This document shows, one piece after another, positions 25,239 to 32,155 of a stretch of 64,000 bases of DNA. Position 1 is the first letter of the stretch, and each line of letters begins with the position of its first letter. A model generated the notes under the pieces. The model did no database searches, was not told the DNA's origin, and worked only from the letters and a program-made list of their open reading frames with translations. Location of the stretch: NCBI GenBank assembly GCA_003859965.1, contig RQYR01000010.1, positions 1 to 64,000 of the forward strand, read 5' to 3'. This stretch comes from Comamonadaceae bacterium OH2545_COT-014. GTDB taxonomy: Bacteria > Pseudomonadota > Gammaproteobacteria > Burkholderiales > Burkholderiaceae_C. Position numbers and translations under genes: made by a program.

Positions 25239-25385
25239 CTACGCAAAGTCGTAGAACCAGACATCAAACCCGTTCCAAGCGTCACGGTAGAACAAGAAAG
25301 GCTGGCCGTCGCTGGCCAAGCCAGTAACGTGGCGACGGCGCGCGGCTGGCGGCAAAACGCTCAACGCCTGACTTTCCATCGCCAT
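25239..25385 (-). CDS. Small ORF (48 codons) directly after rtcB
   Basis: This short frame begins ATGGCGATGG and ends in a stop at 25239. It is 34 bases downstream of the rtcB stop. Its second half (SDGQPFLFYRDAWNGFDVW then FYDFA) is strikingly protein-like, rich in Phe, Tyr and Trp, unlike random GC-rich translation. It could be a genuine small protein of the rtcB transcript or the 3' remnant of a larger gene whose front was lost. There is no obvious strong ribosome-binding site. I do not recognise a family. Confidence 0.4.
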   Translation of the reverse strand: MAMESQALSVLPPAARRRHVTGLASDGQPFLFYRDAWNGFDVWFYDFA

Positions 25386-25419
25386 CCATCGGCGGCCTGA
25401 GCGGCCCGTGCTGCGTCAC

Positions 25420-26787
25420 TCACCCCTTCACGCACAGCACCTGCTTGAGCGTGTGCACCACGTCCACCAGGTCGCGCTGGGCGGCCATCACCGCGTCGAT
25501 GTCCTTGTAGGCCATCGGGATTTCGTCGATCACGGCCTCGTCCTTGCGGCATTCCACGCCGGCGGTGGCGGCGATCTGGTCGGCCACGGTGAATTGCTTT
25601 TTGGCCTGGGTGCGGCTCATGGTGCGGCCTGCGCCGTGGCTGCAACTGTTGAAGCTGTCGGGGTTGCCCTTGCCGCGCACGATGTAGCTTTTGGCGCCCA
25701 TGCTCCCCGGGATGATGCCCAGCCGCCCTTTTTCGGCATTGACTGCGCCCTTGCGGGTGACGAACACGTCTTGCCCGAAGTGGGTTTCGCGCTGCACGTA
25801 GTTGTGGTGGCAGTTGACCGCTTCCACGTGCGTGTCGAAGGGCTTGGCGATGACGTTGCGCAGCGCGTGGATGACGCGCGTCATCATCACCTCGCGGTTG
25901 GCGGCGGCAAACTTTTGCGCCCAGCCCACGGCCTGCACGTAGTCGCCAAAGTACTGCGCGCCTTCCTCGAAGTAGGCCAGATTGGCGTCGGGCAGGTTGC
26001 GCTGGTGCAGCTCGGCGTCTTTCTTGGCCAGCTCGATGAAGTGGGTGCCGATGGCATTGCCCACGCCGCGCGAGCCGCTGTGCAGCATGATCCACACGCT
26101 TTGCTGCTCGTCCAGGCAGATTTCGATGAAATGGTTGCCCGTGCCCAGCGTGCCCAGGTGCTTGTAGTTGTTGGTGTTCTTGATGCGCGGGTGCTTGTCG
26201 CAGATGGCGTTGAATTCATCCACCAGCTGGGCCCAGGCGTGGTCGGTTTCTTCGGGCGGGGTTTCCCAGCCGCCTTTGTCGCGGCCGTAGCGCTTGGGCG
26301 TCATGCCGTGGGGCACGGCTTTTTCAATGGCCGCGCGCAGCGGGCCCAGGTTGTCGGGCAGGTCGCTGGCGGTGAGCGTGGTCTTGCAGGCGATCATGCC
26401 GCAGCCAATGTCCACCCCCACGGCGGCGGGGATGATGGCGCGCAGGGTGGGGATGACCGAGCCAATGGTGGCCCCGATGCCGTAGTGCACGTCAGGCATC
26501 ACGGCCACGTGCTTGAACACGATGGGCAGGCTGGCCACGTTTTGCAGCTGCTGGCGCGCTTCATCTTCCACCGGCACGCCGCGCGTCCACATCTTCACGG
26601 GCACGGCGCTGCCTTGCTGCATTTGCAGGTAGTGGCCGTGCTCGCTATTGATTTCCACGATTTCGGGCGGCGCTTGTTCTTCAGCCGAGGCCTGGCGCGA
26701 CTGCGCGGCGGCCAGGCGGCGGGCCAGGCGGGCGACGGTGATGTCGTCGGCGGGGGCGGCGACAGGGGTGTTTTGTTCGGTGTTCAT
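25420..26787 (-). CDS. rtcB: RtcB RNA-splicing/repair ligase
   Basis: The 455-residue ligase joins RNA ends bearing 3'-phosphate or 2',3'-cyclic phosphate to 5'-OH ends, using GTP and manganese. The metal-binding motif VGVDIGCGMIA, the GTP/metal residues in GTLGTGNHFIE and HSGSRGVGN, VNCHHNYVQRE, and the guanylylated histidine in NSCSHGAGRTMSR (near residue 384) are all intact. An N-terminal extension of about 45 residues precedes the conserved core. The ATG at 26787 is chosen because GGAA lies nine bases upstream; another ATG at 26799 has no such site. A sigma54 promoter lies about 45 bases before the start, placing it under RtcR. No rtcA (RNA cyclase) gene is present. Confidence 0.93.
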   Translation of the reverse strand: MNTEQNTPVAAPADDITVARLARRLAAAQSRQASAEEQAPPEIVEINSEHGHYLQMQQGSAVPVKMWTRGVPVEDEARQQLQNVASLPIVFKHVAVMPDVHYGIGATIGSVIPTLRAIIPAAVGVDIGCGMIACKTTLTASDLPDNLGPLRAAIEKAVPHGMTPKRYGRDKGGWETPPEETDHAWAQLVDEFNAICDKHPRIKNTNNYKHLGTLGTGNHFIEICLDEQQSVWIMLHSGSRGVGNAIGTHFIELAKKDAELHQRNLPDANLAYFEEGAQYFGDYVQAVGWAQKFAAANREVMMTRVIHALRNVIAKPFDTHVEAVNCHHNYVQRETHFGQDVFVTRKGAVNAEKGRLGIIPGSMGAKSYIVRGKGNPDSFNSCSHGAGRTMSRTQAKKQFTVADQIAATAGVECRKDEAVIDEIPMAYKDIDAVMAAQRDLVDVVHTLKQVLCVKG

Positions 26788-26842
26788 GTGCGGTTCCATG
26801 TGACGGCTGTTGTTTTTTGATTGACTGGCAGTCCTGTGTGAT

Positions 26843-26858
26843 TGCAGGGGGCGTGCCA
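26843..26858 (-). promoter_or_regulatory. Sigma54 promoter of rtcB (P2)
   Basis: Read on the minus strand the site is TGGCACGCCCCCTGCA, a 15 of 16 match to TGGCACG-N4-TTGCA with GG and GC at the correct spacing. Transcription would begin near 26832, giving a leader of about 45 nt before rtcB. This site gives rtcB its own enhancer-dependent promoter, separate from the slipin transcript. Confidence 0.75.
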
Positions 26859-30349: not shown

Positions 30350-30362
30350 CAACCCGTTGATT
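30350..30362. promoter_or_regulatory. IHF consensus site
   Basis: CAACCCGTTGATT matches the IHF consensus YAA-N4-TTGATW at every defined position. It is centred near -62 relative to P1, between the distal dyad and the promoter, where DNA bending would bring an upstream activator to sigma54 polymerase. Confidence 0.6.
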
Positions 30363-30384
30363 TGAAAGAGAAATTATTTTTCTA

Positions 30385-30397
30385 GCCCGATTTGGGC
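30385..30397. promoter_or_regulatory. Dyad GCCC-GATTT-GGGC, candidate RtcR enhancer (distal)
   Basis: This 13-base inverted repeat is centred near -97 of P1, the usual distance of an upstream activating sequence, and about 90 bases before the rtcR start. It could also mediate autoregulation of rtcR. Confidence 0.55.
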
Positions 30398-30484
30398 AAG
30401 GGCGCAGGGGTGATGGGCTGCATGGCTGAAAATAGAATATTGGCGAATCAATCCGTCATTTCTATCCTTTGATCTAGATTCGAT

Positions 30485-32155
30485 ATGCGCAAGAAAAACG
30501 TCGTCATCGGCTACCTGGGCACACAGCTTGATGCAGGCGGCGGCCGGGGCCGGTGGGAGAAATGGCGGCCCACGGTGTCGCTGGTGCAGCAGGCGGCCTG
30601 GCCAGTGGACAGGCTGGAGCTGTTCTACGCCAGCCGCTATCAGCGCCTGGCAGACCGCGTGCTGGCCGACATTGCCGAGCTGTCGCCCGCGACCCAGGTC
30701 AACCTCGTTCCCATCGAAGTGAGCGACCCCTGGGACTTCGGCGAGGTCTATGCCGGCCTGTACGACTGGGCGCGCAGCTACCCCTTCGACAGCGCGCGAG
30801 AGGACTACCGGGTGCACATCACCACCGGCACGCACGTGGCGCAGATCTGCCTGTTCCTGCTGGTGGAGGCGCGCTTCATCCCCGGCGTGCTGCTGCAAAC
30901 CAGCCCGCCCCGGCGGCAAAACGGCGAGCAGCCCGGCAGCCTGACCCTGATCGACCTCGATCTTTCGCGCTACGACGCGCTGGCCCAGCGTTTCCGTCAG
31001 GCCCAGCGCGAGGCACGCGCGCACCTCAAAAGCGGCATCGCCACGCGCAATGCGCGCTTCAATGCGCTGATCGACGAAATCGAGCGCGTGGCCGTGCGCT
31101 CGCGCGCGCCCATCCTGCTGGCTGGCCCCACTGGCGCGGGCAAATCGCATCTGGCGCGGCGCATGTACGAGCTGAAAAAAGCCCGCCACCAGGTGCAAGG
31201 CGCTTTTGTCGAGGTCAACTGCGCCACCCTGCGCGGCGATGGCGCCGCCTCCACCCTGTTTGGCCACAAGCGCGGCGCCTTCACCGGCGCCGCCGCCGAC
31301 CGCGCCGGGCTGCTGCGCAGCGCCGATGGCGGGGTGCTGTTTCTCGACGAAATCGGCGAGCTGGGCCTGGACGAACAGGCCATGCTGCTCAAGGCCGTGG
31401 AAGAAAAACGCTTCTACCCGATGGGCAGCGACCAGGAGGTGGAAAGCGACTTCCAGCTCATCGCCGGCACCCACCGCGACCTGCGCGCCGAGGTAGCCGC
31501 CGGGCGCTTTCGCGAAGACTTGTTCGCGCGCATCAACCTCTGGACCTACCACCTGCCCGGCCTGGCCGAGCGGCCCGAAGACATCGCCCCCAACATCGAC
31601 CACCTGCTCGCGCGCCACGCCAGCGAAGACGGCCGCCTGGCGCGCTTGAGCAGCGAGGCGCGGGCGCGCTATCTCGCCTTTGCCCAATCGTCCAGGGCGC
31701 TCTGGCGCGGCAACTTCCGCGACCTGGCCGCCAGCATCACCCGCCTGGCCACCCTGGCCGAAGGCGGCCGCATCGGCAGCGCCCTGGTCGAAGCCGAAAT
31801 CGCCCGCCTCGAATGGCTGTGGCATGGCAAGGCCGAAGCCGGTGCCGATACCGCGCCCGCGGGCAATGACGCCGATGGCACTACCGCCAACCACGGCCAC
31901 GACGAAGACGCACTGCTGCACGCCCTGCTCGGGCCCGAACGGCTGGCCGCGCTGGACCTGTTCGACCGCCTGCAACTGCGCGCCGTCATCGCCCTGTGCC
32001 AGCGCAGCGCCAGCCTGGCCGACGCGGGCCGCCAGCTCTTCAACCACTCGCGCACCCGGCGCAGCACCGCCAACGACAGCGACCGCCTGCGCAAATACCT
32101 GGCCCGCTTCGGGCTGAGCTGGGCAGCGCTTCATGCCCCTGAGCCAGACCAGTAA
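30485..32155 (+). CDS. rtcR: RtcR, sigma54-dependent activator of RNA repair genes
   Basis: The 556-residue protein has an N-terminal CARF/RtcR sensor domain (about 1-180, NVVIGYLGTQLDAGGGRGRWEKW and HITTGTHVAQICLFLLVEARFIPGVLLQT). It is followed by an AAA+ domain with Walker A GPTGAGKS (about 213-220), the sigma54-contact loop GAFTGA (264-269), Walker B VLFLDEIGEL and the arginine-finger region FREDLFARIN. A C-terminal helix-turn-helix (ASLADAGRQLFNHSRTRRSTANDSDRLRKYLA) binds DNA. In E. coli and Salmonella RtcR is relieved of self-inhibition by damaged RNA ends bound at the CARF domain. It is divergent from the operon it should control, with a complete enhancer-type promoter between. Confidence 0.95.
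   Translation: MRKKNVVIGYLGTQLDAGGGRGRWEKWRPTVSLVQQAAWPVDRLELFYASRYQRLADRVLADIAELSPATQVNLVPIEVSDPWDFGEVYAGLYDWARSYPFDSAREDYRVHITTGTHVAQICLFLLVEARFIPGVLLQTSPPRRQNGEQPGSLTLIDLDLSRYDALAQRFRQAQREARAHLKSGIATRNARFNALIDEIERVAVRSRAPILLAGPTGAGKSHLARRMYELKKARHQVQGAFVEVNCATLRGDGAASTLFGHKRGAFTGAAADRAGLLRSADGGVLFLDEIGELGLDEQAMLLKAVEEKRFYPMGSDQEVESDFQLIAGTHRDLRAEVAAGRFREDLFARINLWTYHLPGLAERPEDIAPNIDHLLARHASEDGRLARLSSEARARYLAFAQSSRALWRGNFRDLAASITRLATLAEGGRIGSALVEAEIARLEWLWHGKAEAGADTAPAGNDADGTTANHGHDEDALLHALLGPERLAALDLFDRLQLRAVIALCQRSASLADAGRQLFNHSRTRRSTANDSDRLRKYLARFGLSWAALHAPEPDQ

Follow-up and report, generated by a model that had tools for sequence, protein, structure and literature searches.

A conserved leader RNA with two predicted tandem tRNA-like structures precedes slipin in an RtcR-type RNA-repair locus of a Comamonadaceae bacterium

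The rtcR-slipin-rtcB locus and its leader RNA

We analysed a 64,000-nt stretch of the genome of Comamonadaceae bacterium OH2545_COT-014 (contig RQYR01000010.1, positions 1 to 64,000), called the window hereafter, in which the activator gene rtcR is divergent from an operon consisting of slipin, genes for a 249-aa and an 88-aa protein, and the RNA ligase gene rtcB. The first sigma54 site is separated from slipin by a leader of about 770 nt. Comparison with related loci revealed in this leader a conserved structured RNA, predicted to consist of a 5' domain and two tandem tRNA-like structures (TLS1 and TLS2). The first-pass annotation of this DNA had overlooked the leader RNA, including its tRNA match over the Rfam cut-off, although it is the most conserved unknown part of the locus. 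The features are as follows, those of the leader first:

30305..30320, minus strand: first sigma54 (-24/-12) site, TGGCACGGCCTTTGCA, preceding the leader RNA and slipin
30164..30291, minus strand: 5' domain, a GC-rich hairpin followed by a long stem, GGUGC../..GCAUGCC, in which two bases bulge out (R2 match and A8 covariation, see below)
30093..30148, minus strand: TLS1, with acceptor GGCATG/CATGCC, a T arm and then TCCA (pairing and covariation of its T1 arm)
30026..30092, minus strand: TLS2, with a D arm, an anticodon-type arm (loop CTGATCA), a T arm and a short acceptor
29576..29742, no strand assigned: genome-wide repeat of about 165 bp that separates the RNA from slipin and does not belong to the conserved RNA
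30485..32155, plus strand: rtcR, encoding a CARF-type sensor and sigma54 activator, divergent from the operon
28381..29526, minus strand: slipin (SPFH/stomatin-like, Band_7; PF01145, 110 bits)
27557..28306, minus strand: accessory open reading frame of 249 aa, no family over cut-off, recurring between slipin and rtcB
27225..27491, minus strand: open reading frame of 88 aa, lineage-specific
26843..26858, minus strand: second sigma54 site, TGGCACGCCCCCTGCA, preceding rtcB
25420..26799, minus strand: rtcB RNA ligase (Pfam RtcB, 435.4 bits, over cut-off)

In the tandem tRNA-like stretch the T arm is present twice, the D arm and the anticodon-type arm once each. Pairing within the stretch was examined in alignment A4, which covers the T1 arm and TLS2 and was made from 46 diverse sequences by sequence alone (MAFFT). 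In the T1 arm plus TLS2 cloverleaf 93.3% of the cells were paired, against 34-49% with the partners slid, and 186 two-sided changes were counted, against 55.3 (sd 7.9) in shuffles. RNAalifold found the cloverleaf unprompted on A4, minus the outer acceptor pairs; the acceptor of TLS2 is short, and its outer two pairs were formed in 47% of cells. The TLS1 acceptor was not aligned by MAFFT and was scored as a helix, which reached at least 6 in 43 of 62 loci; in the controls the mean number of such loci was 6.6 (maximum 11) with partners swapped between loci and 3.9 (maximum 8) with shuffled upstreams. For the 5' domain, alignment A8 (42 of 56 reference sequences) gave 145 two-sided changes vs 48.6 in shuffles and 90.5% pairing vs 39-52% when slid, and in the hairpin and long stem GGUGC and AUGCCGC are nearly invariant. 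The predicted fold of a Pseudomonas locus, L144, consists of two full cloverleaves back to back. L076, L135 and L136 were left out of A4 and A5, L147 was left out of both and of the TLS counts though two T arms were seen there, L106 was left out as its leader is cut by a contig end, and A8 is without L090, L095 and L111, which the motif search did not find.

TLS2 resembles a tRNA closely enough to be matched by the Rfam tRNA model (RF00005), which scored 42.3 bits at 30027-30091 on the minus strand, over the gathering cut-off of 29. ARAGORN made no tRNA call at this place in the window; it called TLS2 a tRNA in 24 of 30 slipin loci, with anticodons assorted or undefined, and a standard tRNA finder would annotate the leader RNA as a tRNA gene with an arbitrary anticodon. 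ARAGORN also called tRNA-Gly at 29034-29126 (inside the slipin gene) and at 34004-34089, neither of which was supported at the Rfam cut-off. The D loop of TLS2 has GG in all 63 loci parsed and the T loop is nearly invariant, whereas the anticodon-type arm covaries and its loop varies. Seven nucleotides were found in 28 of 60 such loops and four in 22 (19 of these GNRA); the 28 seven-nucleotide loops hold twelve different triplets, with U33 in 24 of them, and so do not point to the one anticodon of a tRNA gene. CCA occurs 6-16 nt after TLS1 in 40 of 64 loci and after TLS2 in 8 of 64, counts for which there is no chance control. As the D and T loops are nearly constant and the anticodon-type loop is variable, the elbow appears to have been kept and a fixed decoding identity lost; T arm and D arm together are predicted to mimic the tRNA elbow, a feature shared with YrlA. 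The leader RNA is thus like a tRNA in its cloverleaf, elbow signature and Rfam score, but it differs in having no fixed anticodon, a frequent tetraloop, a short acceptor, a rare CCA after TLS2 and an adjoining domain that covaries and is not part of a tRNA. With tmRNA it shares a tRNA-like structure within a larger stable RNA; it differs in its two tRNA-like units and its link to slipin, and ARAGORN called no tmRNA in the window or in the 30 slipin loci.

The repeat downstream of TLS2 is imperfectly palindromic and has 46 matches in the genome, itself counted. A hammerhead-like CTGATGAG in the window was seen by eye only, differs in L055 and was dropped.

Distribution of the leader RNA and its association with slipin

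True RtcR was found over the cut-off in 42 of 299 genomes of the family (at least 780 bits; the rest at most 381), and 41 RtcR loci were read besides that of the window. By tblastn, rtcB was detected in 38 and slipin in 13 of the 40 loci scanned, and L071 has rtcB and no slipin. With the window included, 14 of 42 RtcR loci are of the slipin type, and in the others Ro60 is the first gene in 23 of 28. The first-gene proteins (A1) match vWA_Ro60 in 24 of 29 cases, the 29th protein being from L040, where slipin and Ro60 stand in one locus. Our results revealed that the two genes avoid each other (both in 1 locus, slipin only in 13, Ro60 only in 23, neither in 5; Fisher p 4e-6, relatedness uncorrected).

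T-loop motifs in the leader were confined to the slipin loci, paired in 12 of 14 and single in L036 and L070. Of 15 Ro60 loci tested as a positive control, 10 had YrlA above its Rfam cut-off; of 22 slipin loci, which contain at least one duplicate pair (L036, L080), only L040 did, where Ro60 is present as well. The Rfam tRNA model passed its gathering score in 11 of 13 and 7 of 9 slipin loci of two tested sets, and at Rfam 15 cut-offs the leader was matched by the tRNA model alone. Weak tRNA matches (33.2 and 31.7 bits) were present in the rsr-rtcB gap of the Ro60 loci L034 and L056. An S-adenosylhomocysteine (SAH) riboswitch above the Rfam cut-off lies at L070:3564-3685. In L062, an RtcR locus whose stretch read has no slipin or rtcB match, the first genes match an Eco57I-type methylase and the XamI restriction endonuclease family.

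To follow the RNA beyond the family, named genomes were scanned with the slipin alignment, and the best 80 of at least 540 loci were taken. They span Comamonadaceae, Burkholderia, Pseudomonas, Rhodocyclales and others, and rtcR is divergent from slipin in 60. Slipin has a T-loop motif ahead of it in 77 of these 80, the exceptions being L106 (contig end), L121 and L122, and a tandem T-arm pair occurs in 64. Since the named and unnamed sets overlap (L055=L074, L046=L099, L053=L110, L036=L080, L043=L107, L065=L114), their counts must not be summed.

Two models were used for searching. R1, made of the T1 arm and TLS2, scored 92.5 bits at the leader in the bacterium's own genome, with 62.6 at the next-best place; of the 14 slipin-type RtcR loci, 12 scored 78-94 bits. 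Among its 21 hits of at least 75 bits in 300 genomes of the order, 18 (window included) lie upstream of slipin, and three (L167, L169 and L174, 77.6-84.1 bits) have no slipin in the 3.1-kb locus; many more fall below 75 bits. R1 was therefore rejected as sole detector, as it also matches many slipin-less places, presumably tRNA genes, and R2, a model of the 5' domain, was built for specificity. In the own genome R2 found the leader alone at E of at most 0.001 (34 bits, E 6.8e-4). It matched the leader of 14 of 14 slipin-type loci vs 0 of 28 other RtcR loci, in which two weak matches (19.8 and 17.7 bits) were located inside rtcR. All 60 rtcR-containing named loci were matched with 30 to 81.5 bits, 40 of them having been used to build R2. 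In slipin loci without rtcR, 18 of 19 reached at least 45 bits and L095 reached 21 bits (L105 is part of the model, and L106 was not included). Surveys with R2 hit 6 of 398 genomes of the phylum and 14 of 399 of the order, 16 distinct genomes, every one with a match directly upstream of slipin (6/6 and 14/14). Some of these genomes also supplied loci for R2 (G122, on the same contig as L080); the surveys ran at an E limit of 1e-4 with stricter filters, so that the window is not listed and the counts are lower bounds. By this comparison of sequences the leader RNA is linked to slipin.

The slipin loci without rtcR are often accompanied by tRNA genes. Among the 11 that have at least 2.5 kb upstream to inspect, 9 carry 1-6 ordinary tRNA genes that precede the leader RNA and share its strand, vs 5 of 60 rtcR-containing slipin loci (Fisher p 1e-6). 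Four of these five are Pseudomonas, and in the two of the four scanned with ARAGORN, L138 and L144, the calls fall on TLS1. The rtcR-less loci with ordinary tRNA genes are L083, L085, L087, L090, L105, L112 and L116 (also L084 and L100). Such arrays suggest a second mode of regulating the module. In Anabaena, according to the passages available from PMC10272220, the repressor TrcR acts on a 26-gene tRNA operon, on rtcB and on a slipin gene, in connection with translational stress. The TrcR regulon is like our slipin-RtcB-tRNA-array loci in bringing slipin, rtcB and a tRNA operon together, but, by the same passages, its regulator is another one and its loci are separate.

A likeness was also seen in RlaP-type loci (PF10127) of E. 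coli and Citrobacter, where a sigma54 site and a short leader containing a T-arm-like hairpin stand ahead of slipin. The gene after slipin is that for RlaP, an RNA-repair-pathway nucleotidyltransferase of a family named for RNA repair. The leader there is, in contrast, reduced. R2 gave 20.7 bits (E 0.099) for the Citrobacter leader, and for that of E. coli R1 gave 16.3 bits (E 0.19) and R2 no match; homology of these leaders with the leader RNA is possible. The slipin-RlaP loci L154 and L155 are of this kind, with a sigma54 site and a short leader that bears a T arm, and a 1-kb stretch spanning the E. coli slipin-RlaP leader was at least 80% covered in 1,620 of 5,426 complete E. coli genomes.

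Promoters, slipin and accessory genes

The gene arrangement given in the first-pass annotation, with rtcR (sensor and GAFTGA loop) divergent from slipin, the two unlabelled genes and rtcB on one strand, was borne out. The rtcR product scored 812.6 bits against NF038308 (equivalog cut-off 650), matched both Pfam RtcR (N-terminal) and Sigma54_activat (AAA+), and contains GAFTGA in its translation; the rtcB product is assigned as RtcB ligase by its Pfam score. Both sigma54 sites that had been reported were also recovered, as 2 of the 6 that a strict scan (score at least 10 of 11) returned from both strands of the 64 kb. The first is conserved, a similar element being found at the same place as TGGCACGGCCTTTGCA in slipin-type relatives. 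For the second, the kin loci L055 and L057 have CGGCACGCACCCTGCA in the corresponding position, and L075 does not. Upstream of rtcB, 33 of 35 named loci have no sigma54 site, and the remaining two have a weak one (score 9) at a distance of about 300-400 nt. A second promoter ahead of rtcB was therefore rejected as a general feature, being limited to the window and two kin.

RtcA (PF01137) had no match in the own genome (3.1 Mb, 99.8% complete), unlike in the Salmonella-type RtcR repair operon, so the earlier remark that rtcA is absent holds for the genome as well. Ro60/TROVE had no match in this genome either, by a profile that is weak for this branch; it recovers 22 of 24 Ro60 proteins of the family's RtcR loci, and hence a divergent Ro60 could escape detection. 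The statement that RtcR responds to RNA with 2',3'-cyclic phosphate ends agrees with the passages available from a Salmonella study, where RtcR is activated by 5' tRNA fragments with such ends (PMC7790460). The proposal that the whole set is one regulon stood in part: the unit of RtcR, sigma54 site, slipin and RtcB is conserved, with rtcR divergent in 60 of the best 80 named slipin loci as given above, and its dependence on RtcR is presumed.

One close slipin is present in the own genome, and among the matches listed its nearest named relatives are in Vandammella animalimorsus (99% identity) and Allofranklinella schreckenbergeri (98%). Stomatin is the closest solved relative: its chains in the PDB align with positions 186-361 of the A7 profile, and there are PDB entries in which 16 stomatin chains share a single sequence. 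The hydropathy maximum of slipin is 1.31, without a transmembrane-like stretch. Slipins of the window type may form a ring and bind RNA. A phage origin of slipin was rejected, there being no match in 50,697 phage records, and a search of viral contigs returned one locus. The slipin frame of L044 has one internal stop codon and was left out of A3. In the passages available, the slipin PA4582 of P. aeruginosa, in an rtcBA operon, is described as of unknown function (PMC8619066) and as induced 3.2-fold by peroxide (PMC1250226).

The 249-aa and 88-aa proteins matched no Pfam or NCBIfam family over cut-off, and no known fold or family proposed for the 249-aa protein was convincing. Its relatives (A6) are conserved at 55-72% identity. 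The 249-aa gene occurs in 8 of the best 80 named slipin loci and in 6 of 200 genomes of the family, own included, lying beside slipin in 5 of these 6; by its occurrence it is a recurrent minority accessory. The 88-aa gene was found in none of those 80 loci and in none of 40 other RtcR loci. In 1 of 40 other genomes searched it was present, with the 249-aa gene and rtcB as neighbours and the gene order unchanged; by this distribution it is lineage-specific. The gene-order comparison that the first-pass annotation had put forward thus gives partial support to its view that the two proteins are new parts of the regulon, and calling the island complete was loose wording, given a lineage-specific gene within it. 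Other loci hold different cargo between slipin and rtcB, e.g. ADP-ribosylglycohydrolase. A gene of that family (PF03747) lies in the slipin-rtcB interval of L057; PF03747 matched 2 of 17 proteins scanned, the second presumably from L055, which also has a metallo-beta-lactamase-fold gene.

Possible function of the leader RNA

The system to which the leader RNA can best be compared is YrlA/Rsr (rsr-yrlBA-rtcBA). Both RNAs belong to an RtcR/sigma54 repair operon, lie beside rtcB and mimic a tRNA by T arm and D arm, and they may be seen as occupying alternative slots. The YrlA model (RF02553) gave a permissive match at 30042-30150 (31.1 bits, E 7.8e-4), below the gathering cut-off of 69. The leader RNA differs further in preceding the first gene, whereas YrlA lies between rsr and rtcB, and in the lack of a Ro60 match in the window genome. 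It also has slipin as neighbour, a 5' domain of its own and a pair of tRNA-like units, of which one includes an anticodon-type arm. In the passages available from PMC8394870, Rsr is held by the basal stem of YrlA and PNPase is bound by its tRNA-like domain; TruB and DusA are described there as enzymes that modify YrlA.

By analogy with this tie between Rsr and PNPase, we favour on balance, with much room for doubt, an RtcR-induced RNA that mimics tRNA twice and works in the manner of a Y RNA, slipin standing in for Ro60. The RtcR/sigma54 promoter would transcribe the leader RNA first, ahead of slipin and rtcB, and the RNA would act as the Y RNA does in Ro60-type repair operons. It would present a tRNA elbow (D loop with T loop) with no fixed anticodon, and the elbow would occupy or tether tRNA-recognising enzymes, such as a tRNA-cleaving nuclease, PNPase, or repair or modification enzymes, while the rest of the RNA might be held by a slipin ring in Ro60's place. 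During tRNA damage, real tRNAs could then be spared or channelled while RtcB reseals the cleaved ones. We infer transcription by RtcR, binding by slipin and the decoy or tether role from the comparisons made here.

Several observations speak against this reading. Twenty-eight of the 60 TLS2 loops have seven nucleotides and are tRNA-like, so that the lack of a usable anticodon is not universal. In 13 other named loci the pair search returned only one T arm. The Pseudomonas loci L121 and L122 have a strong 5' domain (63 bits) and no T-arm motif, and their downstream part is either degenerate or different. R1 gave only 37 bits in L036 and 34 bits in L070, not better than its 24-34 bits in the rsr-rtcB gap of many Ro60 loci. 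Folded singly, 315 nt of the window did no better than shuffles (z -0.18), and the TLS part gave z -0.40 with a predicted fold that lacks the D arm; single-sequence folding energy, not significant for the window, was set aside as evidence. A long-range helix closing the RNA from 5' to 3' (GGUGCCG with CGGCACC near slipin) was also discarded, with a mean of 7.0 vs 6.6 when shuffled and a score of at least 7 in 55 of 92 vs 40% of shuffles. Finally, the counts over loci are uncorrected for relatedness.

The tRNA-like folds could instead be a cis-acting device in the 5' untranslated region by which slipin and rtcB are controlled in stability or translation, e.g. one cut by RNase P or RNase Z, the operon being on only when these enzymes are free or tRNA is scarce. 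We regard this as rather unlikely, though it deserves weight: in the loci read, the RNA immediately precedes slipin and shares its strand, and the CCA after TLS1 in 40 of 64 loci (no chance control) stands as at a processing site. However, CCA follows TLS2 in only 8 of 64, and the leader is 958 nt in the window and L055 vs 828 nt in L057. The longer leader, with the 165-bp repeat before slipin in the window, indicates that tight spacing to the slipin start is not required. A signal amplifier, in which anticodon-loop nucleases cut TLS2 and its cyclic-phosphate 5' half feeds RtcR in a positive feedback, seems improbable. It would be served by the 28 of 60 TLS2 with seven-nucleotide loops, 24 of them with U33, but not by the 22 with four-nucleotide loops, 19 of which are GNRA; moreover, the passages available from the Salmonella study report that YrlA fragments were not detected when tRNAs were cut (PMC7790460). 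The first-pass annotation's own reading, in which a single RtcR regulon owes its novelty to the two unknown proteins and the leader plays no role, has little left to commend it: its genes and sigma54 sites are real and the 249-aa gene recurs beside slipin, yet the leader is the conserved unknown part, which already contradicts it, and the 88-aa gene is in 0 of the best 80 named slipin loci. That TLS1 and TLS2 are inducible spare tRNA genes, degenerate yet working under stress, is hardly credible in spite of the ARAGORN calls of TLS2 in 24 of 30 loci and the real tRNA arrays at rtcR-less slipin loci, given the twelve triplets in 28 seven-nucleotide loops, the four-nucleotide loops in 22 of 60, the short TLS2 acceptor, the rare CCA after TLS2 and the covarying non-tRNA 5' domain.

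Among the papers listed on RtcR, slipin, YrlA, RtcB and PA4582, none treats such an RNA by its title and the beginning of its abstract, and an earlier mention of the slipin association or of the RNA is possible. RtcR gene neighbourhoods are said to be treated most fully in a review by Burroughs and Aravind of 2016, and Y RNAs reportedly in an article by Chen et al. of 2014.

The Y RNA-like reading bears on the question of why a tRNA mimic should be encoded in RNA-repair operons at all, the roles of Rsr and Y RNA having been left open in the passages available from the Salmonella operon study (PMC7790460). That another tRNA mimic, one with a 5' domain of its own and a ring-type partner other than Ro60, is found in this kind of operon points to elbow mimicry as central to their working. 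As a tentative generalisation, which we hold with less confidence than the function proposed above, repair operons may carry an interchangeable ribonucleoprotein of ring protein and tRNA-mimic RNA, either Ro60 with Y RNA or slipin with the double-mimic RNA. The latter would be a new RNA class ranging from Comamonadaceae to Burkholderia and Pseudomonas and perhaps, in reduced form, to E. coli, and its SPFH ring might sort damaged tRNA between RtcB ligation and decay. Slipins of the PA4582 group thereby gain a concrete candidate RNA partner.

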